A DNA stretch of 20,387 nucleotides from a virus. A program made the translations under genes and the position numbers. This document shows positions 2,832 through 20,387 of this stretch, piece by piece (within the stretch, counting starts at the first letter, position 1; every line of letters starts with the position of its first letter). The notes under the pieces were generated by a model. The model searched no databases, was not told the origin of the DNA, and saw nothing but the letters and a program-made list of their open reading frames with translations. The DNA lies in IMG/VR virus record IMGVR_UViG_3300008217_000126, positions 1 to 20,387 of that record. The stretch is one strand, 5' to 3'.

Positions 2832-3139
2832 CGCTTTAGGAGATTGTTGAGGGTCTTAGGGTTATCTCGGAAGAGGCAGCACAACAGTTGTTCATAGGTT
2901 CTCACGCCGGGTTCGCCTAGTTCGAGCCCATAGGACTCATCAAGGGCGTGGAGGATTTCGTGTATGTAGGCTTGTGCTCCTATGAGGTCTTTAGGAGGCC
3001 TCACTAGCCTGATGCGAAACCCTGTAGGGAAGTCGGGGTTTTCTTCGTACTTGGCGAAGAGTCCTTCGTCGCGCAGTTGGGGGTCTAAGTAGACGGGGAT
3101 ATTGTTGGCTCCGACCCGAATGCGGTCGATCTCTTCCAT
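2816..3139 (-). CDS. Small HExxH metallopeptidase-like phage protein
   Basis: A 107-residue protein with HEILH at residues 60-64, the HExxH zinc-binding motif of zincin metallopeptidases. It is followed by ALDESYGLELGE and then YEQLL, with acidic residues (E73, E76, E83) that could give a third ligand. The C-terminal LFRDNPKTL stretch is one I associate with small phage proteins of this HExxH type. There is no signal peptide. Its ATG overlaps the TGA of the terminase large subunit (ATGA at 3139), so it is coupled to packaging. Possible roles are virion-protein processing or an anti-host function. The motif is clear, but activity and substrate are unknown, and the protein is short for a complete protease. 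Confidence 0.7.
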   Translation of the reverse strand: MEEIDRIRVGANNIPVYLDPQLRDEGLFAKYEENPDFPTGFRIRLVRPPKDLIGAQAYIHEILHALDESYGLELGEPGVRTYEQLLCCLFRDNPKTLNNLLKRCADS

Positions 3140-4947: not shown

Positions 4948-5192
4948 CCGATCTTTTCTTCCATCGGATGCGGTTCATCGAAGTCTTCCTCGAAGCTCGG
5001 GAGATTCATAGGCTCGGGGGTTCCTACTCCTATGAGACCTTCGTAGAGGCCTACGCGGTCGATCACTTCTCTGATCTCTTTATGTAGGGCCGCAGGTACT
5101 TCTTTGCCGTCTTCCAGGTCTTCTCGAAGACGTTTCTCAAGGACTTCCAACTGGAGCTCAAGAAGGCGTAGAGCGCGTTCATCGTTAGACAT
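4944..5192 (-). CDS. terS: Terminase small subunit (T7 gp18-like)
   Basis: An 82-residue, mainly helical and very acidic protein directly before the large subunit, in the T7 gp18 position and near gp18 size. The helical part ALRLLELQLEVLEKRL (7-22), then LREDLEDG...VPAALHKEIREVIDRVGLYEGL, resembles the gp18 layout of two to three helices with a short loop. The acidic tail EEDFDEPHPMEEK could contact the large subunit. It would recognise concatemer DNA and present it to the large subunit. The start overlaps the end of the preceding gene by 8 bases, and the stop overlaps the TTG of the large subunit. Assignment rests on position, size and pattern; no DNA-binding motif is obvious. Confidence 0.8.
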   Translation of the reverse strand: MSNDERALRLLELQLEVLEKRLREDLEDGKEVPAALHKEIREVIDRVGLYEGLIGVGTPEPMNLPSFEEDFDEPHPMEEKIG

Positions 5193-5511
5193 CTAGTTTT
5201 ACTGTGAGGACGGAGACAGCGCCTTCGCCGCCAGCGGTGTTCGACACCCGCATTTGGGGCATGACGGCTATAGCGAAGTAAACGACTACGCCATCGGAAT
5301 TCAGTTTTGTGCGACCAATGCTCTTTATCGAAGCCCAAGCATCTGCGCTGCTCATGCGTCCTTGGATAACAGCGGTGAAGTTCTGGGTTCCAGCCGTCCT
5401 CTCAAGGAAGATAGTCCCGGCTTGGTCGTAAGCCCTGCCCAGGTCCACGGGGGTCGAGGTGGTAGTGCCTGAGAGCCCAGAAGCCAGGGTAACTACTCTT
5501 TGGTAAGGCAT
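5185..5511 (-). CDS. Beta-rich virion-associated protein, paralogue 2 of a tandem pair
   Basis: A 108-residue protein, clearly related to its upstream neighbour (5511-5864). Both start MPYQ-V-TL. Both contain DQAGT-F-E followed by a strand ending in GRM-S-D. Both end in PQMRV and then LTVK-D. The strand pattern suggests a small beta sandwich. Similar short proteins occur beside structural genes in other phages, but no function is established. The ATG overlaps the TAA of the upstream paralogue (TAATG at 5511), and its end overlaps the start of the terminase small subunit. The region 60-85 differs most between the copies. A capsid-decoration or tail-accessory role is inferred only from fold and context. 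Confidence 0.65.
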   Translation of the reverse strand: MPYQRVVTLASGLSGTTTSTPVDLGRAYDQAGTIFLERTAGTQNFTAVIQGRMSSADAWASIKSIGRTKLNSDGVVVYFAIAVMPQMRVSNTAGGEGAVSVLTVKLDV

Positions 5512-5864
5512 TACTCGTCAATCTTGACGGTGAGCGTTGATCCAGAGTTAGCCGAGATATTCACGCGCATCTGAGGGAGGATCGGGAAGGCAAAGGCTAC
5601 GAAAGCTGAGTTATCGGCGTCTGCTTCTGTAACTGCCGTGACGGCACCGCTTGTTGAGGTACTTGCAGAGCCATCCACCGGAATAGCCGTGAAGGTGTCG
5701 CCGCTGTCCATACGGCCTTCAATGGTCAAGCTGAAGGTTCCTGAACCCGACTCTTCCACAAACAAAGTTCCGGCTTGGTCGATTCTCCGCTGGAAGTCAA
5801 CCGTAGCTTGGTCCGCGTCGTCTGTGACCGCAGAACACAAGGTCTTTACTACTTGGTAAGGCAT
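5511..5864 (-). CDS. Beta-rich virion-associated protein, paralogue 1 of a tandem pair
   Basis: A 117-residue protein, the first copy of the tandem pair. The core is DQAGTLFVEESGSGTFSLTI (about 30-49), then EGRMDSGDTFTAI, a Ser/Thr/Val-rich middle, and FPILPQMRVNISANSGSTLT near the end. The Gly/Ser/Thr turns and alternating hydrophobic residues indicate a beta sandwich. The start is ATG at 5864-5862 in TAATG, overlapping the holin stop exactly as the next gene overlaps this one, so the duplication kept the junction. The pair sits between holin and terminase small subunit, where T7 has nothing. No function is known to me. It may be displayed on the virion, given the similarity to small structural proteins. 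Confidence 0.65.
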   Translation of the reverse strand: MPYQVVKTLCSAVTDDADQATVDFQRRIDQAGTLFVEESGSGTFSLTIEGRMDSGDTFTAIPVDGSASTSTSGAVTAVTEADADNSAFVAFAFPILPQMRVNISANSGSTLTVKIDE

Positions 5865-6148: not shown

Positions 6149-9100
6149 CTATAGCTCAACCGGGCCAGCCAAGCGTCCAGCCTGGGTTAGCTGAAGAAGC
6201 TCGTTACGTCTGCCGGAACGCAAGTCTCTGATCTGCCTCTTGGCTCCGATGTGGGCTCGTTGAAGCGTGGGATACTCGCGGAGTACCTGAGTGAAAGCCC
6301 TGTTGCGGTACTTCCGAAGGACCTTTTTGATGGCAGAGACCCTGGGACTCTCAGCTTCCAAAGCGCCAAGAGGACTCAAGCCCTGATAGTCCCGCCGCTT
6401 GAATAGCTGCCTGAGCTCCTGACGCAGCGTTCGCCCACCTATACGGATCTCGCCCTGAAGCTCCTGCCAGCGATCATAGGCGTCTTGGCTTCCTTTGACG
6501 AACTCACGCAGGTTGACCCCAGAGACCGTAGGGAGCGGAGGACTGAAGCCGTGCTGAAGCAACACAAGCTCTTGGTTGACCACGGTATCGGAGACTTCGC
6601 GGTAAGCGACGGGCACCAATAGATCGCTCCAGCGGTCAATGGCCTCGCCCATTCCATAGCGAGCCGTCATCCGATTTAGAGGCTCACCAAACATATTACG
6701 AAGCGGCGGCAGATTGTCTGATATACCCGGTATCCGCGATTTCAACTTGTCCCCTATGGACTGAATATCGCGCATATGCAGGTCACCGCTGAGAGCGACA
6801 GCCTGTGCAAAGGTATTGGGGATGATTGCGCCTGCAAACTGCTGAATCACCCGCTCGGCGCGGCGATCCGGGTCAGACAGGACCCCGACGAGGTTTCGCA
6901 CGCCGCTCATGTAAGTGCGGTTCGTGATGTTCCTCGACATACCTACGACAAGGCCGCGCCCCAACTGTTCAAGGGCTTCCTGTTCTTCGTCACCGGCAAA
7001 CCGTGAGTAATCATAGACGTCCGCTACGGTGCCAATCAGGGCTGCAAAGGGTTCGACGCGAATGTAGGAAACGTAGCCTTCTGAAGTCCTGATGGAATAA
7101 GGCTGCCATCCGGCTTGCTCCAAGACTCGGCGCGTCTGTTTATCCTTCGGCCCTCCACCAGTAATCTTGCCTGCTGCGGCCATACCCGTAAAGAAGCTCA
7201 CGATGCCCAGGCCCGCTGAGACTCGTCCAATAGCTTCAGCTTGCTGGTGAGGGTTCCCAGAAACCATGTCTCGAACCAAGCGGCTGCGAGCTCCTTCGAG
7301 ATGCTTCAGATCCTTACCAAAGGCTTTGTGCAGGGCGTACTTGATAGCGCCAGGAAGGTCTACTCGCTGGCCCGCCTGGAAAGCGATGTTCAGCGGAGTC
7401 CTCACGAACGGGAGGAACGGGCGCAAGACAGGAGCCCTGATCGGGAGCATCTGAATCTCCCGCCCAAGAGTTCCGGGGGCAAGCTGCGTCTGGAAGGCTA
7501 TCTCCTCCATGCGAGTGATTGCGCGTTGGACAGGCTCAGACATCTCATCGTATCTGAGAAGGCCATTGTTCGGCATCCACTCTTTAGTGAGGAACTTCCT
7601 CCGCGCCTCGGCCCCCTGGATACCCAAGTCATCTACGGCTCGCTTTGCCAAGCGCAGCACACTTTCGTCAGTCATGCGCTGAGCTTGGTTTACCGCAAGA
7701 GCTAACTGCTCTCTGATATGAGCTTCCAAGGCTTCTCCGCGAAGACCTTGGCGCAGACCTTCGCCTTCTGCCGTTGCTTGGACTACAGCCCTGAAGTTGA
7801 TCTGCTTGGCGGCTTCGTCTGCCGTCATAATGATCCTACCGGGCATATTGATTACGTTCCTGGAGAACCAACCAAGCGCCCTGCCACCAACGGTATTAGG
7901 ACTGACGCCCAGGGCTTGCGGACTCGTAGCCCCAAAGCGGCGTACAGGATCGTCAGTAATGGATGCAGCGCGGCCAATCTGAGGCCTCCGCTCCATGAAA
8001 GCCCTGCCCGTCATCTGCCTTCCTTCTTGGCGGGGGACTCTGCCGGTCAAATCCATAGCATCGTCCAAGCGAAGGAAGTCCACGGTATTCCGTGTGATGT
8101 GCTTGAGTTCCCGCGCTGCCTGCATGAAGGCTGTGCCGCCGCCCTCCATGCCCATAAGCGACATTACGCCAGCGCCAGCCATGTTCTCAAGAGGCTTGTA
8201 GAACGTCAGGAATGCGGGGCCAAGACCAGAGATAACAAGGGTCTTCGGCCCAGACAAGATGGACTGAATGAAGACCTCGTTCACAAAGGCCATGATCTTC
8301 GAGCTCCCACGCTTTGCGGCGAGTTCGGCAAAGTGGGCCGTAGCCGCAGGGCCTAGCCCTTCGACGCTTACGAGGAAGTCTATCAACTTCTCCATGTCTC
8401 GGTCAGTACCAGCACCGCGCTCGAAGAGTTCCTGGAGAGGCTTGGTATCTCCAAGAGTATCTGTGAGGGATAGAAGCTGCCGTCCTCTGAACTGCTTGCC
8501 TTGCTGATAGCTAAACAACCGCATCTGCTGGAAGACGCCCGCCCAATTCTTCAGAAGTCCGTTGGCCGTGTCTCTGTCCCCCGCTCTGGCGGCTTTGAGT
8601 GCGGCTGTGCGGATTTCTTCGTGGGTCTGCTTCAATAGAAAGGTCCGCGCCAGCATTCTTTCGCCTACGATCTCATACAAGGCTACGTCTGCGCTTGCCT
8701 CCTCCAACATACGGGCGATGCTATCTGGGGTTACCTCGCCCCCTACGGTCTCATATTGCCGGATGATCTTGGCGAGATGGTGCATATCCGACGTCCTGCC
8801 CCCCCAGCCTGAAGGGAAGCTACCGAAGATGGATTCAATCGTTCGAATCGAGTCGGCTACACCTTGCTCTGAGATGAGACGAATAAGATTCATAGCCTCC
8901 GGGGGCATCCCGTGGAGAGCCTTCTGAGCCTCATTCATCTGATTGACGTTCAGGAGCGCAGAGCTTGTCCCCTCGGCATCCTTGGTGAGTTCAAATGCGC
9001 GAATGTAGTCATCAATCGCCTCGTCTTCGATTCCGAAGTCTTGCCTTAGAATCTGGCGTGCTCCTGTAGCAGTCTTCTCCAACTTGACGCGCTCTTGAGG

Positions 9101-10549
9101 AGAAGTGCGCTTCGGCAGGGCTTCTTCTCTCGGCGGGGGTGCGGCCTCTGCCGCTTCAGGAACTATGGGCTTAGCAGGCTCAGGGACGGCTCGCGCAGCT
9201 TCAACTTGCTCGATGAGCGTTGCGGACTTCTGATTCGCTGGGATGCCTAAAGACTTCGCTAGAGTCTGGAGCTCCCTCCGAGACAACGCCGCAAGGTCTT
9301 CAGCAGAAGGCTGGGGAATCTTGGGCGTCTTGCCTAGTGCGGCTTCGCCAACATCTATCCGGGAGGTCTTTACCACAGAGGGGTCAAAGTAGATTCTGAC
9401 GCCCTTATCGCGCTTACCTACTACGTCAATGGCATTGAAGCCGCTCTTCTCCATATTGGCGCGGAAGATATCGAAAATTTCCTGCACATCATCAGCGGTC
9501 AACCCCTCTCCCTCAGAGAAATCCCTGATGTTGCGGTATAGCTCCTTGACTGTCTTGGGGGGGGTGCCGTCGATGCCCTCCGAGAGAGCCAGATCAACCA
9601 GATCGTGGTGATCGCCTAACTTCCGCATCCAGTCGGGGATGGGTCCATCGAGGTCGAAGGCCTTTATTTCGCCCACTTCCTCGACCCGATGAACAGCGCC
9701 CCCTCGACTTTTGCCGTACCGCTGGGCGACATTAGCATCGGTGGTAGTGTAGAGCCCCTGCCCGTAGACATTCATCGTGGCATAGTGGCCCTCGTCAATC
9801 TCTAGCACCTCCGCGCCCCCGTGGAACCTTCCCGGTTCAAGATCCTTGAGTTCAATCTCCTTCGCCAGAGGAGAGACCGGAGCTTCTTCAGCGAGGTCTT
9901 CCGCCTCCTTCGCTAGAGGAGAGACCGGGGCTTCTTCGTCCACTTTGGGTGCTCGGCCTTCAGCAGACTTCTTTTGAGCTTCAAGGTACTCATCAGACCC
10001 CTTGGGCGCAGGAGCACTATCGGCACCCTGCGCTACAGCCGTGCGTTGACCCTTCAAACCACGAAGGCCTATGAACATGAGATCAAACGCCAGCCCAAGA
10101 CCCGCCCCTTCAAGGACGTTCTTCATGCGCCCAATGATCTCAGAGTCCTCTTCGTTAGAAGCTAAGAACTCAAAGAGCGGCTGCTGAAGACCAGGAATCT
10201 CCTTCAGCATATCCGACAGCCGCGCCTCGTTACCGCCGAACACGGTAGCGTCTACAAGAGCTCCCGTCAGAGCACTACGAGACAACTGAGCCGTCTTGGA
10301 AGCTCCACCAAGAAACTTCGACGCCTTCGATAACTTGGAGACCACGCCAATAGCCGGGACAAACCCAGCAGCGAAGTTGGTGATCGAGGCTAAAGCGCGG
10401 CCTCCCGCAGTCTCCGGGTCAGGAACGATGTCTATGTCGGGGACGTCATAGCCAAAGATTTCCGGCAAGCCCAGAATGTCATTAGCAAAGTCCTCGATCC
10501 CCTGGCCGAAGCCTTTGAGGGGTTCGAGGGCGAGGTTATCGAGCGTCAT
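6149..10549 (-). CDS. Giant internal/ejected virion protein (gp16 position) with ADP-ribosyltransferase-like and SAP-like segments
   Basis: A 1466-residue protein in the T7 gp16 slot. Residues 50-165 are hydrophobic and Gly-rich (LASITNFAAGFVPAIGVV; EGAGLGLAFDLMFIGL), a stretch I associate with ejected proteins of podoviruses. Residues 205-231 hold two EEAPVSPLAKE repeats. Residues 240-400 look like a phage-type ADP-ribosyltransferase: RFHGG, GQGLYTTTDANVAQRYG, SGFNAIDVVG and IYFDPSVVKTS. Residues 418-452 resemble a SAP/Rho-N helix pair (LSRRELQTLAKSLGIP). The rest is helical with two hydrophobic stretches (around 765-810 and the part holding GLGIVSFFTGMAAAG), suited to a trans-envelope channel. 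I see no lytic transglycosylase domain as at the T7 gp16 N-terminus. The usual catalytic Glu just before the last ADP-ribosyltransferase strand appears replaced (VRIYFDP), so activity is uncertain. The start abuts the upstream stop (TAAATG). Confidence 0.85.
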   Translation of the reverse strand: MTLDNLALEPLKGFGQGIEDFANDILGLPEIFGYDVPDIDIVPDPETAGGRALASITNFAAGFVPAIGVVSKLSKASKFLGGASKTAQLSRSALTGALVDATVFGGNEARLSDMLKEIPGLQQPLFEFLASNEEDSEIIGRMKNVLEGAGLGLAFDLMFIGLRGLKGQRTAVAQGADSAPAPKGSDEYLEAQKKSAEGRAPKVDEEAPVSPLAKEAEDLAEEAPVSPLAKEIELKDLEPGRFHGGAEVLEIDEGHYATMNVYGQGLYTTTDANVAQRYGKSRGGAVHRVEEVGEIKAFDLDGPIPDWMRKLGDHHDLVDLALSEGIDGTPPKTVKELYRNIRDFSEGEGLTADDVQEIFDIFRANMEKSGFNAIDVVGKRDKGVRIYFDPSVVKTSRIDVGEAALGKTPKIPQPSAEDLAALSRRELQTLAKSLGIPANQKSATLIEQVEAARAVPEPAKPIVPEAAEAAPPPREEALPKRTSPQERVKLEKTATGARQILRQDFGIEDEAIDDYIRAFELTKDAEGTSSALLNVNQMNEAQKALHGMPPEAMNLIRLISEQGVADSIRTIESIFGSFPSGWGGRTSDMHHLAKIIRQYETVGGEVTPDSIARMLEEASADVALYEIVGERMLARTFLLKQTHEEIRTAALKAARAGDRDTANGLLKNWAGVFQQMRLFSYQQGKQFRGRQLLSLTDTLGDTKPLQELFERGAGTDRDMEKLIDFLVSVEGLGPAATAHFAELAAKRGSSKIMAFVNEVFIQSILSGPKTLVISGLGPAFLTFYKPLENMAGAGVMSLMGMEGGGTAFMQAARELKHITRNTVDFLRLDDAMDLTGRVPRQEGRQMTGRAFMERRPQIGRAASITDDPVRRFGATSPQALGVSPNTVGGRALGWFSRNVINMPGRIIMTADEAAKQINFRAVVQATAEGEGLRQGLRGEALEAHIREQLALAVNQAQRMTDESVLRLAKRAVDDLGIQGAEARRKFLTKEWMPNNGLLRYDEMSEPVQRAITRMEEIAFQTQLAPGTLGREIQMLPIRAPVLRPFLPFVRTPLNIAFQAGQRVDLPGAIKYALHKAFGKDLKHLEGARSRLVRDMVSGNPHQQAEAIGRVSAGLGIVSFFTGMAAAGKITGGGPKDKQTRRVLEQAGWQPYSIRTSEGYVSYIRVEPFAALIGTVADVYDYSRFAGDEEQEALEQLGRGLVVGMSRNITNRTYMSGVRNLVGVLSDPDRRAERVIQQFAGAIIPNTFAQAVALSGDLHMRDIQSIGDKLKSRIPGISDNLPPLRNMFGEPLNRMTARYGMGEAIDRWSDLLVPVAYREVSDTVVNQELVLLQHGFSPPLPTVSGVNLREFVKGSQDAYDRWQELQGEIRIGGRTLRQELRQLFKRRDYQGLSPLGALEAESPRVSAIKKVLRKYRNRAFTQVLREYPTLQRAHIGAKRQIRDLRSGRRNELLQLTQAGRLAGPVEL
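9857..9937 (-). repeat. In-frame tandem repeat, 33-bp core at 48-bp spacing
   Basis: Bases 9857-9889 and 9905-9937 are the same in 31 of 33 positions and encode two copies of EEAPVSPLAKE, 16 codons apart, just before the ADP-ribosyltransferase-like segment. This looks like a recent linker duplication that lengthened an exposed hinge. Confidence 0.85.
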
Positions 10550-13500
10550 TTAGTCTGGGAGAACTACGGGGGTTATGCTGGTAGGTGCCTCTGTCCAGCC
10601 GCGCCACGGTGCCCGTCTACCCTGAAGCAGAGGATCTTCAGCGATGAGAGCTCTTTGGCTGGCTAGGAATCGGGCCTTTTGCTGTGCAAAGCCTTCAGGA
10701 GTCTTCATGTCCTCTTTCAGAAACCCAAGCATCTCGAAGACTCTGCGCTGATCCGCTTCGGAAGTAGCTGTTTGCCAAGCCTCGAAGTCTTTTTTTGATG
10801 TGATAAATCGGGAGGCCCCTACTTTGAGTGCTTGTGGTTGGAGAGAGAAGGTTCTGGAGATGTGCAGCCTCGATTCTGGCGTACCGGATGAGTGGTGTGA
10901 AACTGTGAAGCCCTTGTCTCCCAGCCAAGAAGTGAAATCTGCGCTACTGGCAAAGAGTTCAGGTGCCTTTGCAAGAAGACGGCGCACATCTTGAGGCATC
11001 ACAGACAAGTCCACGGGAAGTCCGGCGACTTTGTGGGGAGAGATTCTAGGAAACCTGAGCCATTGGTCCCTATCTACGGCCTTATCGGCTGTGATCTGTG
11101 GAGCAGCATCGCCCTTCTTTAGCGCCTGTCGAAACTCAATTTCCCACTCAGGCATCACGAAGGTTTCTACGGTGACTTTCCCAGCAGTAAGATCGTATAG
11201 AGAAAGACGGTTAGCAAGGCCCATGCCCGCTGTAGCCGCTTCAGCCTTAGAAACGTCTTCGAGATCCCCAGCACTAAGGAGGATTTCGGCCCCGACGTAC
11301 CACGCAAAACGTCTATCAATTACGTCGGGATGCCATTCCGCGAACGCAAACCCATCATCAGGACCCAAATTAGAATCCAAGGCTTTATCTTTATATTCAT
11401 AGATCTTTTCAGTCAGCAGCTTTGAAGTCCGCCCCGCTTCAATCGCGTCCTTTGCCATCTCTCCTAGGGTTGCATCAGGCTTCAGGGCGCGGCTGCTTAT
11501 ACTCAGTTCTTCTGATAAGCGTCTTGCGAGAATTCCCTCCAGCGTTGGCATAGGCTGTCCGTCGCGGAAAGGCAAAGTGCGTTCGGCGCTGTGTTTCCGT
11601 ATGGCGCTGACGGCAGCCGCCTTTTTGTCCTCTGCCGTCCCCTCGGTCTCATGAAAGGTAGTGGTATAGAGGAGGGCAAGTTCTTGCGTGTGCTGAGCCA
11701 CAATGCCGCCAAGGGCCTCTGACGCAACATCGATACCAGGGGCTCCTAATTCGCCCTCAAATCCTGCGACCTCTTGTGCAAGAGCTTGTGACCCAGAAAG
11801 GACGCTTCCCATTGTGGCTTCGTTGGCCTCTTTGAGTGTGGCTGCGGTCATAAGAGCGTTCTTTGCCGCCGAACCTAGCGGATTCGTGGGATCCCTTAGA
11901 CGTTCTAAGGCTTCAGTAATGAAAGACCCCCCTTGCCCAATGAGACCCCTAATGAGCAAATCTTCAGCTTGAAGCACCTCGACTTGCTTCACTAGCCTAT
12001 CTATATGGCTGTTCTGCGCTGCATACGTTGAAGGCGCATTGGAAAACGCAAGCACTTCATCAACCTGAAGTTTTGATGCCCGGGCAATAGTCTGACTTTC
12101 GAGGGCATTCCAGCGCCTCTGATCTTCAAGGACAACCGAGGGATCTGCGAGGCCTTCGTATAAACGACGTACCTGCGCGTAGTATGCGCTGGTGTCCTCC
12201 GTGGCGGGTGTCCGCACAAACTCGCGTATAGCCTCAGTTCTTTCGTCCCGCCCTTCTATGTCTCCAAGGACCGCATCATAAGTCTCTTTGTTGATGTCGC
12301 CGTTCGTGAAATCGGCCTCTACTTCCGCTTCGAGGACCGCTGGATCCTCCCCGCTTACCAAGCGACGAGCCATATCGCCCTCGTAGGCCTTGTTCTCAGG
12401 CAGCCGTTTCTCCGCAGAGATCGCGTTCACGCGCTGCTCTCCCCACAACTTCAATTCTGTCCGCGCTTCAGCAGAAAGATCTATAGTGCCTAGGGCTGAG
12501 TATGCGGCGACTGCATCTCTAAGTTTCTCTGCTGTGGTCAACGCAGAATCACCCGCCGCTATACTCTCGCTTCTCGTAGACTCCAGCCAAAGGCTTAGAG
12601 ACCTTTCAGCTTCGCGCTGCACCAAATCTCGATCCCGGATGTCGGATAGCTCTCTTTGGCTCTTTTTGTCCGCAATGGCGTCTTCAGCCTTTTGGATTTT
12701 CCCCGCCAACTCCGGGTACGCCTCCAAGACTGGCTGGTTTGACGAATGGACCTTCATATCTTCTAACATGGCTAAGATGGCGTAGCCGTCTTCTGCTACA
12801 GCGGCCCTCGTCTCGTCCCCCTCAACCTGCCGAGAGCCCATGTCTACGGCTTTTGAGATCATCTCGTCAAAATACCGGGGGTAAGCGTTCGGATCGTGCT
12901 CCTCGACACCCGCGATTACTTCGCTCAGCGCAGCCGCAGGCGCAGGGTCGGCTTGTTCTTCTGCCGTGAGGTCTACGAAATGGACAAGACCCATCCAGCG
13001 GCCTTCAGCATCTCCGTTGTAGAGTTCAACAGACTCCAGGCGCTCTTTCTCAGACTGGGCAAAGACGTTCCTGCGGTGCCTGACGTTTTCGCTGAGCTCG
13101 CGCTTGATACCGGGAAGTTGGGCGTTGAAGACTTGTGTGGCATAGAAACTATTAGCCAGTCCTGGACGCGCTTCGAGGAGACTTTTGAATTCTTCGTCTA
13201 CAGCCGCGTCTGTGTTCGCTGGACCGGCTAAGTCTCCGTTTTCATCCCGAACCGCCGATAGTTCGGCAATCCTCTCCAAGCTATTGACGCGAACATTCCC
13301 GATAGCTTCGTGAGCAACAGCCCTAAGCAAGCCCAACTGCGCGCCGGGGTGGGCCATCGGAGTATCAATGATGCCCTCTTCGTAGAGCTTGCGGAAAGCG
13401 ATGTTCCAGCGCCGATTATATTCCTCGGGAGTCTTGGCCCCCTTCGTCGCCTTGTCGATGCGGCCTTGAATCAAAGCCTTCGTCTTTGCGTCTTGTTTAC

Positions 13501-13717
13501 TCCAGAACCCTTCAGCGTTCTCAGCAGCCGCCGCATACTTCTTCTCGAAGTCCTTGGTCAGATGTTGAGCCAGAGCCTTTGAGAAGGGCGCCAGGTTCAG
13601 GACGTTTGGCGCTTCAGCCCTCAGATTCGGGGCTATGAAGGCATCGAGGGGGACCGCAGCCGGGGTTAGGTCTTGTCGGGCTTGAAGGGCCTGGATCGGA
13701 TAGCGGCGGGCTGCCAT
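10550..13717 (-). CDS. Internal virion/core protein (T7 gp15-like)
   Basis: A 1055-residue, largely helical, charge-rich protein with no membrane segment, in the T7 gp15 slot between gp14-like and gp16-like genes. It is longer than T7 gp15 (about 750 residues). The N-terminal part, PFSKALAQHLTKDFEKKYAA and then NRRWNIAFRKLYEEGIIDTP, with RWMGLVHFVDLT further on, reads like the start of gp15-type core proteins. The middle is Ala/Glu/Arg-rich helix with coiled-coil potential. The C-terminal part has a more globular look (SWLGDKGFTVSHHSSG, LHISRTFSLQPQALKVG). In this family gp14, gp15 and gp16 are ejected to form a channel across the host envelope. The ATG abuts the TAA of the gp14-like gene (TAAATG). 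Confidence 0.85.
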   Translation of the reverse strand: MAARRYPIQALQARQDLTPAAVPLDAFIAPNLRAEAPNVLNLAPFSKALAQHLTKDFEKKYAAAAENAEGFWSKQDAKTKALIQGRIDKATKGAKTPEEYNRRWNIAFRKLYEEGIIDTPMAHPGAQLGLLRAVAHEAIGNVRVNSLERIAELSAVRDENGDLAGPANTDAAVDEEFKSLLEARPGLANSFYATQVFNAQLPGIKRELSENVRHRRNVFAQSEKERLESVELYNGDAEGRWMGLVHFVDLTAEEQADPAPAAALSEVIAGVEEHDPNAYPRYFDEMISKAVDMGSRQVEGDETRAAVAEDGYAILAMLEDMKVHSSNQPVLEAYPELAGKIQKAEDAIADKKSQRELSDIRDRDLVQREAERSLSLWLESTRSESIAAGDSALTTAEKLRDAVAAYSALGTIDLSAEARTELKLWGEQRVNAISAEKRLPENKAYEGDMARRLVSGEDPAVLEAEVEADFTNGDINKETYDAVLGDIEGRDERTEAIREFVRTPATEDTSAYYAQVRRLYEGLADPSVVLEDQRRWNALESQTIARASKLQVDEVLAFSNAPSTYAAQNSHIDRLVKQVEVLQAEDLLIRGLIGQGGSFITEALERLRDPTNPLGSAAKNALMTAATLKEANEATMGSVLSGSQALAQEVAGFEGELGAPGIDVASEALGGIVAQHTQELALLYTTTFHETEGTAEDKKAAAVSAIRKHSAERTLPFRDGQPMPTLEGILARRLSEELSISSRALKPDATLGEMAKDAIEAGRTSKLLTEKIYEYKDKALDSNLGPDDGFAFAEWHPDVIDRRFAWYVGAEILLSAGDLEDVSKAEAATAGMGLANRLSLYDLTAGKVTVETFVMPEWEIEFRQALKKGDAAPQITADKAVDRDQWLRFPRISPHKVAGLPVDLSVMPQDVRRLLAKAPELFASSADFTSWLGDKGFTVSHHSSGTPESRLHISRTFSLQPQALKVGASRFITSKKDFEAWQTATSEADQRRVFEMLGFLKEDMKTPEGFAQQKARFLASQRALIAEDPLLQGRRAPWRGWTEAPTSITPVVLPD

Positions 13718-14422
13718 TTAGATTTTAGAAATCACGGTGCCGTCTGCGGCAACTGTATGGGTCATATCCCAAGCCTGCATAGCTGACGTACCTATCTGAA
13801 GGGCACCTTGAAGGAACGATGGCACCGGGACATCAACGTGCTGCGCGGCAAGGATGCGGCCCTGCGTCTGTGTCTGCATCGCTTTGACTGCCACTTCCGT
13901 TTGCGCGTCCGCGAACATTGAATTCCGCACCGTTGCTGTAGCAAAGTTCATGTATTGGCCCACTAGATCCCTAAGAACGGAGTTTACGGCGGCACCTGCT
14001 ACCTTTGTTTCTCCCGCTGTTGCTCTAGCGGTGCCAGCAGCCTCCATAGCAGCGCGGCCTACGCGATCTATCTCCATAGCGTGCTTCTGCTGCTGCTGAG
14101 CCTGTGCGGTCCTTGCCGTTGCTGTCCGGTCAAAGTACGACTGATTAGCTAAGTCTCTGTTTAGCTTGTAATTCTGTTCTCCAACTTTGTTTGCCAGTTG
14201 CGCCGCCTCCCGCTGTGCCCAGAAGCTATACGCAGCTCCAGCGGTCATAAGCCCCTGCACCGCCCCAGCCACGCCAACTGTAGAAGCAAGGCTTCCCACA
14301 GTCATCGACGTAAGGCCCACGCCACCCGCTCCTACTGAGATCGCCGGGATAGACAGAGCACTTATCGCGGTGCCCATCGAAGCGAGGGCTCCGGGTATTG
14401 CTGCTATAAGAGGAGGGCACAT
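13718..14422 (-). CDS. Internal virion protein (T7 gp14-like)
   Basis: A 234-residue protein, near T7 gp14 size (196). Residues 5-65 are Gly/Ala/Ser-rich and hydrophobic, suited to outer-membrane insertion after ejection. Residues 68-190 are helical with a Gln run (QAQQQQ, 107-112) and Ala-rich coiled coil. The end contains LAAQHVDVPVPSFLQGALQI (191-210), a Pro-containing segment typical of gp14-type proteins, followed by SAMQAWDM. It would be part of the inner core and then of the ejection channel. The ATG follows the stop of the gp13-like gene by four bases, and the stop abuts the gp15-like start. Confidence 0.85.
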   Translation of the reverse strand: MCPPLIAAIPGALASMGTAISALSIPAISVGAGGVGLTSMTVGSLASTVGVAGAVQGLMTAGAAYSFWAQREAAQLANKVGEQNYKLNRDLANQSYFDRTATARTAQAQQQQKHAMEIDRVGRAAMEAAGTARATAGETKVAGAAVNSVLRDLVGQYMNFATATVRNSMFADAQTEVAVKAMQTQTQGRILAAQHVDVPVPSFLQGALQIGTSAMQAWDMTHTVAADGTVISKI

Positions 14423-14426
14423 GAGA

Positions 14427-14978
14427 TTAGCAAGTCAGTTTGATGAATTCCCAGAAGGCTTCCCCGTGGACACCTTTGTTTGGATGAAGGACAACGAAAT
14501 CAAAGCCTACCCAGGTGAGCCAGCGTATATGGACCTCATTTCGGGCATCAACGTAGTTCATAAGACCGTCGTAGTTCCGGCCAACGTGCTTCAGCCAGTC
14601 CTTAGACCAGCGTAAGAAGGTCTTGGAAATGTCGAATATCTTGGGTGTACCCAAGAGCCACACGAATCCAATGAGAGGAAACGAGTTCTCAGGCAACTCC
14701 TCGGGCAAACTGTCTTCAGGAGGACGAGGCCCAGGTGTGGGAGGCGTGACGCCAAAGAGAGCCACGGGCTCACCATCGACTTCAACGGTGTGGCACTCAT
14801 CCGACAAATGAAAGCCCATGAGTACCGCTTCCAGCGGAGGGATCTCAGCTACAGCCCAGCATTCGGCTACGTCCGCTTGCCGCATATTGCTGGCAACTAT
14901 GTAGCAATCGGAGAGCTCCGCAGGGCGAACAGTTACCCCGTGTAAGGGCGCCTCTTTGCTACGAACTTTCCGTCCCAT
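14427..14978 (-). CDS. T7 gp13-like protein with GNAT acetyltransferase-type fold
   Basis: A 183-residue protein placed like T7 gp13, between tail tube B and the gp14-like gene. The C-terminal part NYDGLMNYVDARNEVHIRWL (about 135-154) aligns by eye with the T7 gp13 stretch containing YDTLWNYV and HIRFL. The opening TVRPAELSDCYIVASNMR (16-33) is the usual first strand and helix of a GNAT fold. A Pro-rich insertion (about 79-99) makes it longer than gp13 (138 residues). In T7, gp13 is needed for virion assembly; acetyl-transfer activity is not established. The ATG at 14978 lies 46 bases inside the end of tail tube B with no clear Shine-Dalgarno, so a later start is possible, but the GNAT-like part starts close to it. 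Confidence 0.8.
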   Translation of the reverse strand: MGRKVRSKEAPLHGVTVRPAELSDCYIVASNMRQADVAECWAVAEIPPLEAVLMGFHLSDECHTVEVDGEPVALFGVTPPTPGPRPPEDSLPEELPENSFPLIGFVWLLGTPKIFDISKTFLRWSKDWLKHVGRNYDGLMNYVDARNEVHIRWLTWVGFDFVVLHPNKGVHGEAFWEFIKLTC

Positions 14979-17900
14979 TCTGCGCTGGTTAGGTTTGAGG
15001 GTAAATGCGAATCGTTAGTGACTGTGATCGTGGTCTCCGTGGCCTTGCCTTGGACGGGGAAACGATGTGTCTCGCTCTTGAACAGCGGAGTCGTATCTGA
15101 GGCAGAGCCAAACTCGGTCTCCCGCGCAGTCCTGTTCGTCAGTGAACACGATGTCTTGAAGTACGTTGTGTTATCGCAGTTCAAGCGTCCATCTTGGACT
15201 TGCCAAGAGAACGGCAGAACCTCTACGCTGCCTTTCTCAGTCTTACGCCGAAGTTTAGGCGTAGAGAAGGTGTAGGTCATCGTGTATTGGACGCCCACCC
15301 AGACCGCCGTACTGGCTTGATCTCCTGTGACCCTGACGGTATTCGCCGTAGTCGCGCTGACTGTCAACGGCTCGCCTGTCTTCTTTACGACCTTCATCGT
15401 GGCCCCGGTGGGGATGTCGTAAGGCAAAGTCCATTCGGTATAGACACCCGAACTAAACGAGGGCGACAAGGTTGAACCGTCAAGGCGCATATCCAAGGTA
15501 GTCTTGAAGGTCTTGCCCGTGTCCACCGTCCCCGGAGCCACCGTCATCTTCTCGATATGGAGACCATCATCGCGCTCAATCGTCAGATAAAGGTCTGAGT
15601 CAATGAAACTCATGTGCCGGATCGTGGCTTCAGAATCAAACTGATACTTGAACCAAGCCGCCTGGATCTGCTGAGTCCCCGACCAGAAGAACTTGAAGCC
15701 ATACAGAAGGCCTCGGTCACCCGAAGACTGGACAACCAGAAGATTCTCCGTATCTGAAGCCACCATCTGCTCCACAGTCCCAGAGATGAGCTCGGGAACC
15801 GATGCGCTGCTGTGGTCAGAGCGGTAACGATCCGCGTCCCCCACCTGGAAGAATTCACGGATACCGCTGTAAGCCGAGAGCGGGGTAGCGAAGAAGATCC
15901 TCTCTCCTACGGAGACAGGCTCAGCCGCCATGAAATCGTGTGCCCCTATCTTGTCTACGGCGGCTGTCTCAGGCGTCAGCAAAGGTACGCCGGTTAGGCG
16001 GTATTGCGCTCGGTCGCTGAAGAGAACCAAGGCCTGTTCGTGGTCTACTCCGAACTCAAACAGAGAGACTTCCCGGTTGCTCGAAGCGATGTCAATGCGG
16101 TCGCTGTCAATGACGGCAAGCACCGAAGTACGCCACAAGTTGAAGAAGGCATTGACTTCAGACAGCACTACGCGGTCTTCCGTGATGAAGCCTAGACGGC
16201 CTTTGTGGAGGAAGACGTCTGTGATGGACTTGTCGATAAACGAAGGCGCTGGGTTGCTATCGTCATCGCCTACCTTGCGGTCTATCCAGGTTATAGGACC
16301 CCACTCAAAATAGATTTTGTCGGCTACGCCTGTGATGGTTCCGTGGGTGTCATCTTGATAACGAGTAAGCCTATGCGGCATCGTCGTATCGTTGAATTTG
16401 TAAGCCACTTCAGACCCAATGCTTTCCTCCCAATGCCCCTCTCCAAAGGCGTCAGTACCGCCGTCTGCCTGGAACTTGACCCAATAATCAGCGGTGTCTC
16501 CTTGGCCTTCAATGGGCTCGCCCGTGACCTTGATAGGAATGCCGTCTAGGAACGTGAGCGGAAGGTCAGCAAAGAGAGGGACAGTCTTGAAAATCTTGAG
16601 AAGTCCTGTGTCTCCAATCCCATCGGTGCATTCCACAGAATCAAAGGCCGTTCCATCAGTCTTCACCACGCGCAAAACAGAGCCCACTCGCGTTACTGTG
16701 TAGCCCGCAAGGGGAGTTGCGCCATATGGCAGATCCCCCCCACCAATGATGTGCTCGAAGTCTTTGCAAATGCTATCGGTAGCTACGCCTGTCTTCGTGA
16801 ATGCCGTCCCCGTACTCATTGCAAAGCCACGCAGCCGTGCAAACGGACTGTGGAGGCCGCCATCAACCCAAAGCCCCCCATCAGCAATACAAGAGAGATA
16901 ACTTGGTCCCTCTCCGTTATGGCACCGGCTTATAAAGTTTACATCGTCATTCGTCCCAATAACCACCGTGACCTTCGATTCCCCGACTGGCGTGAAGTTT
17001 ACTTCGTAGTCCACCATGTACGCCCCTTGCTTGACGAACATGAAGAACTCATCGTCTGCCTGTGCAGGAGACACCAACGCCGTATTCATCGCGGGGACCT
17101 TGGCCTTGTTCACCCAGATCGTGTAGTCGGCTATCGTCGTAGCTCTAATGTCGGACAAGTCCGAAGTCGTTAGGTAGGACAGGTCGAGCGTCCGCTCACC
17201 CAACTTAGGGTGCCAAACAAGAACCTTCGACTCTCCCGCTACCGTGCTCTTATGGGGGTAAATCTCCATGTAGACCGGCTCGCCAGCCAGCCCTGGCACA
17301 TACCAATTACCTCTGAGGAGCACCCAATCGTCATCCAACACTTCAAGCGTAGTGCCCATATCGGGATTAGTACCTACGTCATAAACACTGGGGGGGCTTG
17401 CATCAAGGTTGACGGCTATCTTGCCCTTGACCCCTTCGGCGGTGCCATCAGCGAAGATATGCACCTGCACAGAGCTGCAAACTCCTGCGTCTTTTTTGAG
17501 GTAGACCTCGAACGGAATATCCGCAAAGTCATCAAAGGGGTTCTCATCGGGCTGGCTGGGTCCAAATTCTTCCAAGTCCCCTGTATAGACTTGCTCCCTC
17601 AATTTGAGGTCGCTTTCTGTAGTTCCAGGATTGTCTGACGTAAAGCGGGAAGCTGTCTTCGTGAAGTCGGGCGCTATGCCGTAGCCCTCTTCGATGGTGC
17701 AGTCCGCATCAGCTACCCAATAGCTCGTATCCTCAAGCCCATATTGGGCGTAGGTTTTGAGGCGGTTGTCTAGTTTCCCGTAAACAGGGATCTCTGTGCC
17801 ATCTGCGAGATCCCAGACTTTCATCTCAGTAGACGAGGCCTTGACCACATACTTCTCATTCACATCGCGGTCAATCGTGTGATACTTCCCGGCTGAGACA

Positions 17901-18073
17901 GAGCCATCTATGACTCGCTCCAGGTGCTCTGTGGGATGCCGCTTGATAAGCCCCTCAGTCGGGGACGGGAAGGCATTGATCTGGTCTTCAGCGTGCTCAG
18001 GACGCCTAGCCGCGTCAGGCTGCTGAGAGATCCCATGCACCAGCGACGGGATCGAGACTGAGACCCTAGACAC
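14933..18073 (-). CDS. Tail tubular protein B (T7 gp12-like, tail nozzle)
   Basis: A 1046-residue protein, longer than T7 gp12 (794). The start VSVSIPSLVHGISQQPDAAR (5-24) followed by INAFPSPTEGLIKRHPTEHL is the family signature: GISQQP, then a TEGL-KR-P motif. The remainder is beta-rich, as expected of a nozzle built of beta barrels and propellers. The C-terminal half includes FIDKSITDVFLHKGRLGFIT and an EFGVDHEQALVLFS stretch, both regions I would expect in this family. Extra length probably sits in inserted beta domains of the N-terminal half. It forms the distal tail tube through which core proteins and DNA exit. The start is GTG at 18073-18071, overlapping the TAG of tail tube A (TAGTG). 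Confidence 0.95.
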   Translation of the reverse strand: MSRVSVSIPSLVHGISQQPDAARRPEHAEDQINAFPSPTEGLIKRHPTEHLERVIDGSVSAGKYHTIDRDVNEKYVVKASSTEMKVWDLADGTEIPVYGKLDNRLKTYAQYGLEDTSYWVADADCTIEEGYGIAPDFTKTASRFTSDNPGTTESDLKLREQVYTGDLEEFGPSQPDENPFDDFADIPFEVYLKKDAGVCSSVQVHIFADGTAEGVKGKIAVNLDASPPSVYDVGTNPDMGTTLEVLDDDWVLLRGNWYVPGLAGEPVYMEIYPHKSTVAGESKVLVWHPKLGERTLDLSYLTTSDLSDIRATTIADYTIWVNKAKVPAMNTALVSPAQADDEFFMFVKQGAYMVDYEVNFTPVGESKVTVVIGTNDDVNFISRCHNGEGPSYLSCIADGGLWVDGGLHSPFARLRGFAMSTGTAFTKTGVATDSICKDFEHIIGGGDLPYGATPLAGYTVTRVGSVLRVVKTDGTAFDSVECTDGIGDTGLLKIFKTVPLFADLPLTFLDGIPIKVTGEPIEGQGDTADYWVKFQADGGTDAFGEGHWEESIGSEVAYKFNDTTMPHRLTRYQDDTHGTITGVADKIYFEWGPITWIDRKVGDDDSNPAPSFIDKSITDVFLHKGRLGFITEDRVVLSEVNAFFNLWRTSVLAVIDSDRIDIASSNREVSLFEFGVDHEQALVLFSDRAQYRLTGVPLLTPETAAVDKIGAHDFMAAEPVSVGERIFFATPLSAYSGIREFFQVGDADRYRSDHSSASVPELISGTVEQMVASDTENLLVVQSSGDRGLLYGFKFFWSGTQQIQAAWFKYQFDSEATIRHMSFIDSDLYLTIERDDGLHIEKMTVAPGTVDTGKTFKTTLDMRLDGSTLSPSFSSGVYTEWTLPYDIPTGATMKVVKKTGEPLTVSATTANTVRVTGDQASTAVWVGVQYTMTYTFSTPKLRRKTEKGSVEVLPFSWQVQDGRLNCDNTTYFKTSCSLTNRTARETEFGSASDTTPLFKSETHRFPVQGKATETTITVTNDSHLPSNLTSAEWDGKFVAKRRPYTG

Positions 18074-18669
18074 TAATAGCCCCTCAAAGGACTACCACGC
18101 TTCACCGCGTATGCACCAGGACTCACGTTGAGGATATTAGCCTCATTCGTGAAGCCCTCGGCGCTGATTAGGCGAGCTCTGGCTTGGCGTTCGTCAATCG
18201 AAGTGAACGAATAAGTGTCTCCGTCACTCTGGTAGCGCGAAGCAAAGACGCGGGCCGCTCGAATGCTGATGTAGCGATTCGCAGCTTCAGGGAGATCGGT
18301 GAAAGCTCGGTAGTACACAATGTCCATCTTCTTAGCCGAAGATCCCCAAGACGTTGTGCTGAAGTCTTCCGAGTCGTACATGAAGAGGCCCTTTTGAAAG
18401 CCCTTCACAGACGGATCGTGGAAGTCGATCTTGAGAGCATCTGTAGGAACCGCGATGGCTCCACCCGAAGGCGTAATCTCTACCTCGTACTCCGTATTGA
18501 AATGCCAGCCCTCAAGTTGAACCTCCTTAGAAACCTCATCCAGCGTAGTCTCAGCTTGAGTCCCGTAGAAGTCTGAAGCCGCCGCTGGGATGGACGCTAC
18601 AGGACCTTCGTTGATCGTCGCCAAGATGATGTTGACGGCTTCTAGTTTTGTGGTGAGTGCTGTAGGCAT
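18073..18669 (-). CDS. Tail tubular protein A (T7 gp11-like, gatekeeper)
   Basis: A 198-residue protein, the same size as T7 gp11 (196). KLEAVNIILATINEGPVAS (8-26), LDEVSKEVQLEGWHFNTE (43-60) and the later ANRYISIRAARVFASRYQSD are the family hallmarks. It forms the ring that joins portal to nozzle. The ATG at 18669-18667 has no Shine-Dalgarno: upstream lies a pyrimidine-rich CCTTCTTCT directly after the hairpin at 18693-18719. Translation may therefore depend on other signals. The stop overlaps the GTG of tail tube B. Confidence 0.95.
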   Translation of the reverse strand: MPTALTTKLEAVNIILATINEGPVASIPAAASDFYGTQAETTLDEVSKEVQLEGWHFNTEYEVEITPSGGAIAVPTDALKIDFHDPSVKGFQKGLFMYDSEDFSTTSWGSSAKKMDIVYYRAFTDLPEAANRYISIRAARVFASRYQSDGDTYSFTSIDERQARARLISAEGFTNEANILNVSPGAYAVKRGSPLRGY

Positions 18670-18692
18670 TTCTGTTCGTTAGAAGAAGGCCA

Positions 18693-18719
18693 GGGGTCCC
18701 TGGTCTAGCCAGAGACCCC
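18693..18719 (-). terminator. Intrinsic terminator-like hairpin after capsid gene
   Basis: On the minus strand GGGGTCTCTGG-CTAGA-CCAGGGACCCC forms an 11-bp stem (one T-G wobble) with a 5-base loop, starting 11 bases after the capsid stop codon and followed by the pyrimidine-rich TGGCCTTCTTCT. T7 has its late terminator at the same place, between genes 10 and 11, where partial termination gives excess capsid mRNA. The T tract is interrupted, so read-through is likely. An RNA-processing or stability hairpin is the alternative. Confidence 0.75.
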
Positions 18720-18730
18720 CAGCGTTAGAA

Positions 18731-19747
18731 CTAAGCAGTCTGGATCTGAGCACACGCCTGCGGAAGAAGGAAATCGTGGCCTTCCGCAACCTTGGCAAGC
18801 ATCAGGTGGCCCTGACGCTCCATGATGTACTCAACCTCAGTCTGAACATCCATCAGAGACACGCTGCCGATAGCGTCCTTCTGCCAGCAGCAAGCCGTGG
18901 TGTTGCTGGCGTCAACCAGATAGGTGGCACCGCGCTGCCCCGCAGTCTGGTAGCCGCTGGAGTCATCGGTCGGAAGGAGGTTCGTCTTGATGAGCTCCAT
19001 GCCCCAGGCCTTGAAGACCGTGCCTTCAGAGAAGATCCCGTTCTCCCCGCCACCGAAGTCCCTGTTCAGGAGATCCTGGTTTTGGACGAGCAGGTAATAC
19101 TGCGTCGGTGCCAGGGCGCAATACCGGCTGTCCTCGGGCACATCATTGTCATCGAACGCAATAGCGACGTCTTTGATGGCTTCCAAGAGAGCGCCACCAT
19201 CAGTCCCGGAGTTGGCCGAAGTAATGACGGTGCCGCCAGGATGCTCGGTATTTCCCGTCGAACCCAGAATACCGTTCGTTTCGTTCGCCGCTGTGATGAC
19301 AACCCGCATCAAGTTGATGTCGGTGTTCCGCGCCAAAGCCATGCCCTGTTTGCGGGCATAAGGAGCGCGAACGTCATAAAAGTTGCGAAGCTCATCGAGT
19401 TCGGAGATGAAGAGCGGAGAGATGAAGAGATCATCACAGAAGACCTCCTTCTCTGCGTGCTTCATCGCATCCAGATAGTTCACGGTCGCAGTTGCAGCGG
19501 CCTCATGGTCAAGGGCGGTATCCGTCAGAATGTCCTCGCCTGCGGCGTGGTATTTTCCCGTAGATTTGCCGATGACGGGGAAGACTGAGGATTTTTGGTT
19601 GCGAAGTTTGCGCCGAGTAACTGTGGGCGCAATCTTCACCATCTCATCGTAGGCCAGGAGGACTTCGCCGCTGTACTGCTTGAGAAACAGCTCGATGTCA
19701 TCGGACCCTCCGGTGTCGAGACCGGGTTGTGAAAGTGCAAAAGCCAT
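18731..19747 (-). CDS. Major capsid protein (T7 gp10A-like, HK97 fold)
   Basis: A 338-residue protein, close to gp10A length (345). The N-terminal pattern IELFLKQYSGEVLLAYDEMV (18-37), then TRRKLRNQKSSVFPVIGKST and YHAAGEDI, follows the T7 gp10 order of FLK-GGEVL-AF, then the Ser/Arg strand, FPV-GR and Y-APGE. The C-terminal GSVSLMDVQTEVEYIMERQG and a final beta strand fit the HK97-fold P-domain and C-terminus. It forms the icosahedral shell. The ATG at 19747-19745 is supported by AGGAA seven bases upstream. The gene is flanked by a candidate promoter upstream and a strong hairpin downstream, which would let it be transcribed separately at high level. Confidence 0.95.
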   Translation of the reverse strand: MAFALSQPGLDTGGSDDIELFLKQYSGEVLLAYDEMVKIAPTVTRRKLRNQKSSVFPVIGKSTGKYHAAGEDILTDTALDHEAAATATVNYLDAMKHAEKEVFCDDLFISPLFISELDELRNFYDVRAPYARKQGMALARNTDINLMRVVITAANETNGILGSTGNTEHPGGTVITSANSGTDGGALLEAIKDVAIAFDDNDVPEDSRYCALAPTQYYLLVQNQDLLNRDFGGGENGIFSEGTVFKAWGMELIKTNLLPTDDSSGYQTAGQRGATYLVDASNTTACCWQKDAIGSVSLMDVQTEVEYIMERQGHLMLAKVAEGHDFLLPQACAQIQTA

Positions 19748-19773
19748 GTTGGTTTCCTATTAGAAAAAAGGTA

Positions 19774-19808
19774 AGGGGTCGTTACATAAGAAACCGTCCA
19801 ACAGTCAA
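19774..19808 (-). promoter_or_regulatory. Candidate promoter for the capsid gene
   Basis: In the 107-bp gap upstream of the capsid gene the minus strand shows TTGACT (19808-19803), then TGTAAC 16 bases later (19786-19781), with an overlapping TATGTA (19788-19783). A transcript would start near 19774 and have a leader of about 27 bases ending in TAGGAA-N7-ATG. The -35 box is good and the -10 box is poor, as might be expected if the phage sigma factor next door, with its own -10 preference, reads it. No second copy of this element is visible in the window. Confidence 0.35.
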
Positions 19809-19854
19809 ACTCTGCCGCTACTGCACAAGCATTCCCCGCAGGGAGGCCCGGTAG

Positions 19855-20387
19855 CTAGTCACAACGAGAACTAGAGTCCGGTTGTTCGTTTAGATGGGTA
19901 CTCTCACGCAATCGGTAGTAGACCGCGCTGTACGTCACGCCAAGGCGATCTGCTATCTCTTGCGAGGTATAGCCCATAGTCCGCAAGCGATGTACCTGGA
20001 CTTGCTTCGGCGTACAGCGGCGTAAGAAATGCCGATAGGAGTCCAGGAGCTCAGCCGTCTTGGCCGGGTCAGGAGTCAAAGAAGCCGGTGTAGCCTCTTC
20101 AGGAGTCAACGCATCCAAGCTGGCGAAGCTGCCGTTGAATGTCCCGCCTTGGCGCAGCCGTAAGCGGATCTCATCCTTTATGTAGTAGCGAGCCTTCATA
20201 TAGGCGAACGCTTCCAGGTTATCGCTCCTAGCCGGGTCAAAGCTCTCAACAGCTTTCCAAGCCCCTATGAGCCCCGCTGAGTAGGCCTCGTCTAACAGCG
20301 GGCGAGGGATATCCAGCGAACGCATCGCCCTCTTTACAGCAGGGACAAGCTCGCTGACCGTGCTATCCCTCGTCCCCACTTTGCCCA
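19855..20387 (-). CDS. Phage sigma-70-like transcription initiation factor (possibly cut at the window edge)
   Basis: A protein of 174 residues or slightly more. Region 2 spans about 27-78: LLDEAYSAGLIGAWKAVESF, then AFAYMKARYYIKDEIRLRLR, matching the core-RNA-polymerase-binding and -10-recognition helices of sigma-70 proteins. After a linker rich in Pro and Thr (about 88-106), region 4 spans about 118-160: TPKQVQVHRL, then TSQEIADRLGVTYSAVYYRL, a clear -35-recognition helix-turn-helix. Regions 1 and 3 are absent or very short, as in small alternative sigmas. The innermost visible start is GTG at 20379-20377, but the frame stays open (GGC AAA before it) and bases 20387-20386 allow an NTG codon finishing one base outside the window. 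It lies just upstream of the capsid gene, so late-gene control is likely. A host-derived helix-turn-helix regulator is less likely, as both sigma regions are present. Confidence 0.85.
   Translation of the reverse strand, partial: GKVGTRDSTVSELVPAVKRAMRSLDIPRPLLDEAYSAGLIGAWKAVESFDPARSDNLEAFAYMKARYYIKDEIRLRLRQGGTFNGSFASLDALTPEEATPASLTPDPAKTAELLDSYRHFLRRCTPKQVQVHRLRTMGYTSQEIADRLGVTYSAVYYRLRESTHLNEQPDSSSRCD

Follow-up and report, generated by a model that had tools for sequence, protein, structure and literature searches.

What would a sigma factor be doing beside the capsid gene of a T7-type phage? T7-like phages are the classic example of phages that transcribe their late genes with a polymerase of their own, and the question is raised by a 20,387-base record of an uncultured virus, analyzed here over its whole length and referred to as the window, in which a sigma-like gene at the extreme right edge adjoins the capsid gene of a T7-type late module. 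Structural genes of the Autographiviridae type are present in T7 order, and all recognized genes lie on the minus strand. Read from the right end, they run sigma, capsid, tube, nozzle, gp13, gp14, a protein at the gp15 position, gp16, small genes, the terminase large subunit (TerL) and a fiber-like gene. The succession from capsid to gp16 and then terminase is that of T7, and the fiber-like gene lies behind the terminase here. The features of the window are as follows.

19855–20379, minus strand: sigma-70-family factor, regions 2 and 4, as predicted with Pfam, NCBIfam, PHROG, AlphaFold and Foldseek
19748–19854, minus strand: 107-nt sigma–capsid gap, candidate late (phi10-like) promoter site, as the sole sizeable gap before the structural operon
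18731–19747, minus strand: major capsid protein, T7 gp10 type (Pfam Gp10A-like, 5.9e-39; PHROG 267, 1.3e-54)
18689–18723, minus strand: 15-bp stem-loop between the capsid and tube genes (terminator scan; T7 Tphi position)
18073–18669, minus strand: tail tube protein, gp11 type (Pfam Tube, 2.1e-31)
14933–18073, minus strand: nozzle protein, gp12 type (Pfam Phage_nozzle, 3.4e-180)
14427–14978, minus strand: gp13-type internal virion protein (PHROG 308, 4.7e-35)
13718–14422, minus strand: gp14-type internal virion protein (Pfam T7_gp14, 2.2e-18)
10550–13717, minus strand: large protein at the gp15 position, placed by position only, with no family match
6149–10549, minus strand: gp16-type internal virion protein (PHROG 6651, 9.6e-61)
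3139–4947, minus strand: terminase large subunit (PHROG 38, 1.6e-89)
1274–2074, minus strand: tail-fiber-like protein (PHROG 9729, 3.6e-5)

Two further observations concern other genes of this module. Within the gp16-type protein (6149–10549), a stretch YGQGLYTTTD... resembles an ADP-ribosyltransferase fold by eye only, and near the terminase the small genes 5185–5511 and 5511–5864 form a tandem pair, related to each other (E 1e-14) and conserved around their starts.

On its family matches and predicted fold, the gene at the right edge is judged to be a small two-domain phage sigma factor with regions 2 and 4 and, like ECF sigmas, without region 3. Both peptides quoted in the preliminary description belong to a single minus-strand reading frame, which has a GTG start at 20379 or is open to 20385, the gene being cut, or nearly so, by the window edge. 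We found three near-identical contigs of the window; the sigma protein measures 174 aa from the GTG common to all contigs and 177 aa from an ATG in one of them, L002, only. In the sigma-70 family, region 2 serves core binding, -10 recognition and melting, and region 4 serves -35 recognition. Region 2 of the window protein matches Pfam PF04542 (Sigma70_r2) with an E-value of 9.3e-11 and 41.8 bits against a cut-off of 24; its sequence (LEAFAYMKARYYIKDEIR) resembles the FliA/WhiG kind, and the FliA/WhiG models match the protein weakly and in region 2 only. Region 4 alone reaches 21.2 bits with PF08281, under the cut-off of 25.7, and is also matched by generic helix-turn-helix models in the Pfam search, whereas region 4 of a homolog in another phage (L103, described below) passes PF08281 by itself (36 bits). 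Over the length of the protein, the NCBIfam model TIGR02937 (sigma70-ECF) matches residues 14–161 with 50.5 bits against a cut-off of 42.9, and PHROG 351, "RNA polymerase sigma factor", matches residues 31–161 (4.5e-10); PADLOC returned a weak match only, to the helix-turn-helix part. Of the two regions that had been claimed for this protein, region 2 is borne out by PF04542 over its cut-off; for region 4, PF08281 alone falls short of its cut-off, and TIGR02937, over its own, reaches residue 161.

The predicted structure agrees with this assignment. An AlphaFold model built from a shallow alignment of 4 rows (mean pLDDT 72) shows the region 2 helices and, for region 4, a domain of four helices, with a flexible, unpredicted linker (residues 81–106) between the domains. 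In Foldseek, its best PDB matches are either sigma factors or RNA polymerase complexes that contain one, of which only two pass an E-value of 0.001, and many of its viral matches are named sigma factors. The low global TM scores are expected because the relative placement of the two domains is unpredicted. The protein is identical and intact in four contigs, L002, L003 and L004/L005 among them, and the neighboring genes across near-identical contigs show few base changes, mostly at third codon positions. A chance ORF is ruled out by the curated-model matches and the intact gene in four contigs. The Pfam region 2 match, TIGR02937, PHROG 351 and the fold together support what had first been proposed, namely that a member of the sigma-70 family, possessing both region 2 and region 4, is encoded beside the capsid gene of a T7-type module.

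The genes upstream of sigma are seen in the near-identical contigs. In L002, the order is portal, scaffold, a 66-aa protein, an 84-aa lipoprotein-like protein, sigma and capsid. With both portal and scaffold upstream in L002 and sigma between scaffold and capsid, replacement of either one by sigma is ruled out. The relative L124 has portal, scaffold, homologs of the two small proteins (59% and 54% identity), a 144-nt gap and capsid, and no sigma. Because L124 has the same neighborhood without it, the sigma gene looks inserted, on this comparison, between the lipoprotein-like gene and capsid, in a scaffold–capsid slot that is variable. Lipoprotein and small membrane genes occur in this slot, and in other T7-like phages it holds a gene annotated as an HNH endonuclease (CRP-403) or, elsewhere, small genes. 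A sigma region 2 was found in none of 92 other related contigs and phages (42 records and 50 more, many of them fragments).

Two T7-like contigs, L012 (11613–12104) and L009 (4830–5321), encode a different sigma-like protein in the same slot, lying between scaffold and capsid in L012 and behind scaffold in L009, that passes Sigma70_r4_2. The L012 protein also scores over the sigma70-ECF cut-off (45.7 bits); Pfam does not recognize its region 2, it is no close homolog of the window sigma, and its structure model is of modest confidence. Separately, proteins of ~270 aa with a FliA/WhiG-like region 2 are encoded on the viral contigs L111 (5308–6138) and L113 (5986–6783), the L111 gene standing among virion genes (SU10-type adaptor).

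Upstream of sigma, L002 and L003/L004 are entirely different, and downstream they are about 99.5–99.8% identical. The two versions part at the opening bases of sigma (TGGGCAAAGTGGGG; L002:2440, L003:723), and the window starts exactly there (right end, 20387). The L003 version has a gene for a 171-aa lipoprotein-like protein before sigma. In this population, then, sigma remains joined to the capsid operon while the upstream genes exist in two versions. L124 supports the L002 version as the native one. Each of the two junctions may be genuine, or one of them may be a chimera of the assembly.

Related genes occur in L103 (IMGVR_UViG_3300025296_000034), a 42-kb record of an otherwise unrelated phage in which a fiber-like gene, a homologous small sigma and a lipoprotein-like gene stand in a row (7585–9452). 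The L103 sigma is 30% identical to that of the window over 174 columns, the lipoprotein-like protein of L003 shares 80% identity with the L103 protein adjoining this homolog, and the C-terminal part of the window fiber-like protein is 43% identical to the L103 gene on the other side of sigma. From these identities, sigma-neighbor genes appear to have been exchanged between window-type and L103-type phages. L103 is not visibly T7-like; its virion-position proteins that were tested matched no T7-type family, and its capsid-position protein has no match among annotated phages. A scan of bacterial and archaeal genomes with the window sigma returned only matches of 28–33% (Nesterenkonia, Hyphomonas, Caulobacter) and no close homolog among the genomes scanned.

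The spacing of the genes points to where late transcription might begin. From tube to fiber the genes abut or overlap, and the only sizeable gaps are one of 107 nt before capsid, one of 61 nt between capsid and tube, and one of 428 nt behind fiber. No other sizeable gap precedes the structural operon, which makes 19748–19854 the most likely site of a late promoter, and a promoter role would fit both the position of phi10 in T7 and the arrangement in LUZ100, which, like T7, has a promoter before the capsid gene and a terminator behind it (PMC10134795). The hairpin in the 61-nt gap between capsid and tube has an energy of -29.4 kcal/mol (z -4.0), compared with -28.2 (z -3.4) for the Tphi region of T7, and is without a clean run of U. 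In a scan for sigma-70-type promoters, sites were no commoner than in shuffles and gave no promoter consensus, which is not derivable from one near-clonal population. A repeat scan that recovers all five T7-type promoters in the late region of T7 found no such repeated promoter in the window; because CRP-403, a related control that bears the polymerase, is also without an obvious late promoter family, the missing repeats are weak evidence.

We lean toward a reading in which the small phage sigma steers host RNA polymerase to late promoters, above all in the 107-nt gap, and so drives the capsid gene and the structural operon. Sigma would be made during infection and bind host core RNA polymerase, and the sigma-bearing polymerase would be directed to phage late promoters, chiefly in the gap just downstream of the sigma gene. 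A promoter there would drive the capsid gene and the densely packed operon behind it, and the hairpin after capsid may curb read-through in the manner of T7's Tphi. The analysis shows to which family the protein belongs, where its gene lies, that the packed operon is headed by a single gap of promoter size, and that a hairpin is present; binding to core, promoter specificity and timing are our inference.

Several findings favor this late-sigma reading: the whole-length sigma70-ECF match, region 2 and the fold; the packed operon and the hairpin at the Tphi position; the persistence of sigma with the capsid operon; a homolog in L103, whose 42 kb lack PF00940; and the absence from the window of T7-type promoter repeats, all five of which are recovered in the T7 control. 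There is also a precedent in the podoviruses phiEco32 and 7-11, which use a phage sigma on host polymerase for late genes (PMC8948821). Against it stand region 4, which alone is under the Pfam cut-off, the lack of a promoter consensus, the pairing of an ECF-type slot sigma with a phage polymerase in L012, and the location of the known podovirus sigmas in a middle-gene cluster, outside the late genes (PMC8948821). Because the slot is variable, the sigma gene could moreover be accessory.

Among the alternatives, the one that survives best is that the late genes of the phage are still served by a T7-type single-subunit RNA polymerase and that sigma is an extra factor, tuning a promoter subset or timing via host polymerase; we regard this as possible though not probable. 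The preliminary description had argued from a sigma in this place to the absence of a phage polymerase, a step that is weakened by L012, which has a related portal and encodes a T7-type RNA polymerase (393–1466; PF00940, 2.9e-85) upstream of its ECF-type slot sigma. Since L012 encodes both, a sigma in the slot does not imply that the polymerase was replaced. T7-type polymerase is likewise present in 28 of the 45 contigs found mainly by portal or terminase similarity, many of which are fragments. The L012 protein, however, is not a close homolog of the window sigma, its region 2 being unrecognized by Pfam, so that the two are comparable in position only. The near-identical fragments L002–L004, which do not cover the early half of the genome, yielded no PF00940 polymerase, and searches with the portal, terminase, capsid and right-end protein yielded no contigs extending the window genome into the early region; the 42-kb L103 record gave no PF00940 match either. 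T7-like relatives without a phage polymerase do exist, namely the cobaviruses (PMC6918029). More speculative, and in our judgment rather doubtful, is the extension of the late-sigma reading to a T7-virion lineage that has abandoned its single-subunit RNA polymerase and has its late operon transcribed by host polymerase with an operon-encoded sigma beside the capsid promoter, as a self-reinforcing late switch, with the slot having received a sigma at least twice independently.

We think it unlikely that sigma acts on host genes, as an auxiliary regulator of host physiology or takeover, and not on late phage promoters. Phage sigmas in spore-formers do redirect host programs and can be non-essential (PMC9429907), and the gene occupies a variable slot that also holds lipoprotein and small membrane genes and lacks sigma in the relative L124, but it lies directly before the capsid promoter region, stays with the capsid operon when the upstream genes are exchanged, and gave no close match in the scanned cellular genomes. 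Least probable is that the protein merely regulates by binding DNA, or is a sigma decayed to the point of forming no holoenzyme: region 4 is under the Pfam cut-off and generic helix-turn-helix models match too, but the stronger match is to region 2, which serves core binding and melting, the superfamily model spans both regions, and the protein is intact in all four contigs.

If the late-sigma reading holds, its working principle would not be new, since podovirus late sigmas are already known (phiEco32 gp36, 7-11 gp47; PMC8948821), and sigma genes occur in about 13% of reference phage genomes (PMC9429907). In the open-access literature searched, we found no report of a sigma inside a T7-type structural module. 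Within that literature and the collections searched, what is new is the sigma in a T7-type late module beside capsid, together with its apparent repetition with an unrelated ECF-type sigma. A sigma before the capsid gene is a testable route by which a T7-like lineage could come to depend on host polymerase or use the two systems side by side, and the window sigma could supply a compact new sigma–promoter pair.

With T7, LUZ100 and the roseophages CRP-361 and CRP-403, the window genome shares the gene order portal, scaffold, capsid, tube, nozzle, internal virion proteins and terminase. T7, LUZ100 and CRP-403 encode a single-subunit polymerase; CRP-361 and CRP-403 gave no region-2 sigma gene when searched, and the late region of T7 has no sigma gene annotated. 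The sole named matches of the window sigma in annotated phage records are the sigma genes of the SPO1-like Bacillus phages SP8 and Adastra (25% identity, E 2e-3), which are very distant in sequence and come from much larger genomes. T4 gp55 is likewise small, belongs to the sigma-70 family and serves late promoters through host polymerase. It is of the domain-2 type and acts together with the sliding clamp gp45 and with gp33, a separate protein that mimics sigma domain 4 (PMC2988020), so that the domain-4 role resides in gp33, whereas the window protein carries its own region 4 (structure model, TIGR02937). A T4 gp55-type late switch, one of the models first suggested for this locus, therefore fails on anatomy, and kinship with gp55 is rejected. 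By analogy, closer functional models appear to be phiEco32 gp36 and 7-11 gp47, the late sigmas of C3 podoviruses (PMC8948821). Those genes lie in a middle-gene cluster transcribed opposite to the late genes, whereas the window sigma is inside the late module on the same strand, and phiEco32 gp36 is without homology to region 4, which the window sigma has. The proposed principle would nonetheless be the same: a small podovirus-encoded sigma that directs host RNA polymerase to middle or late promoters.
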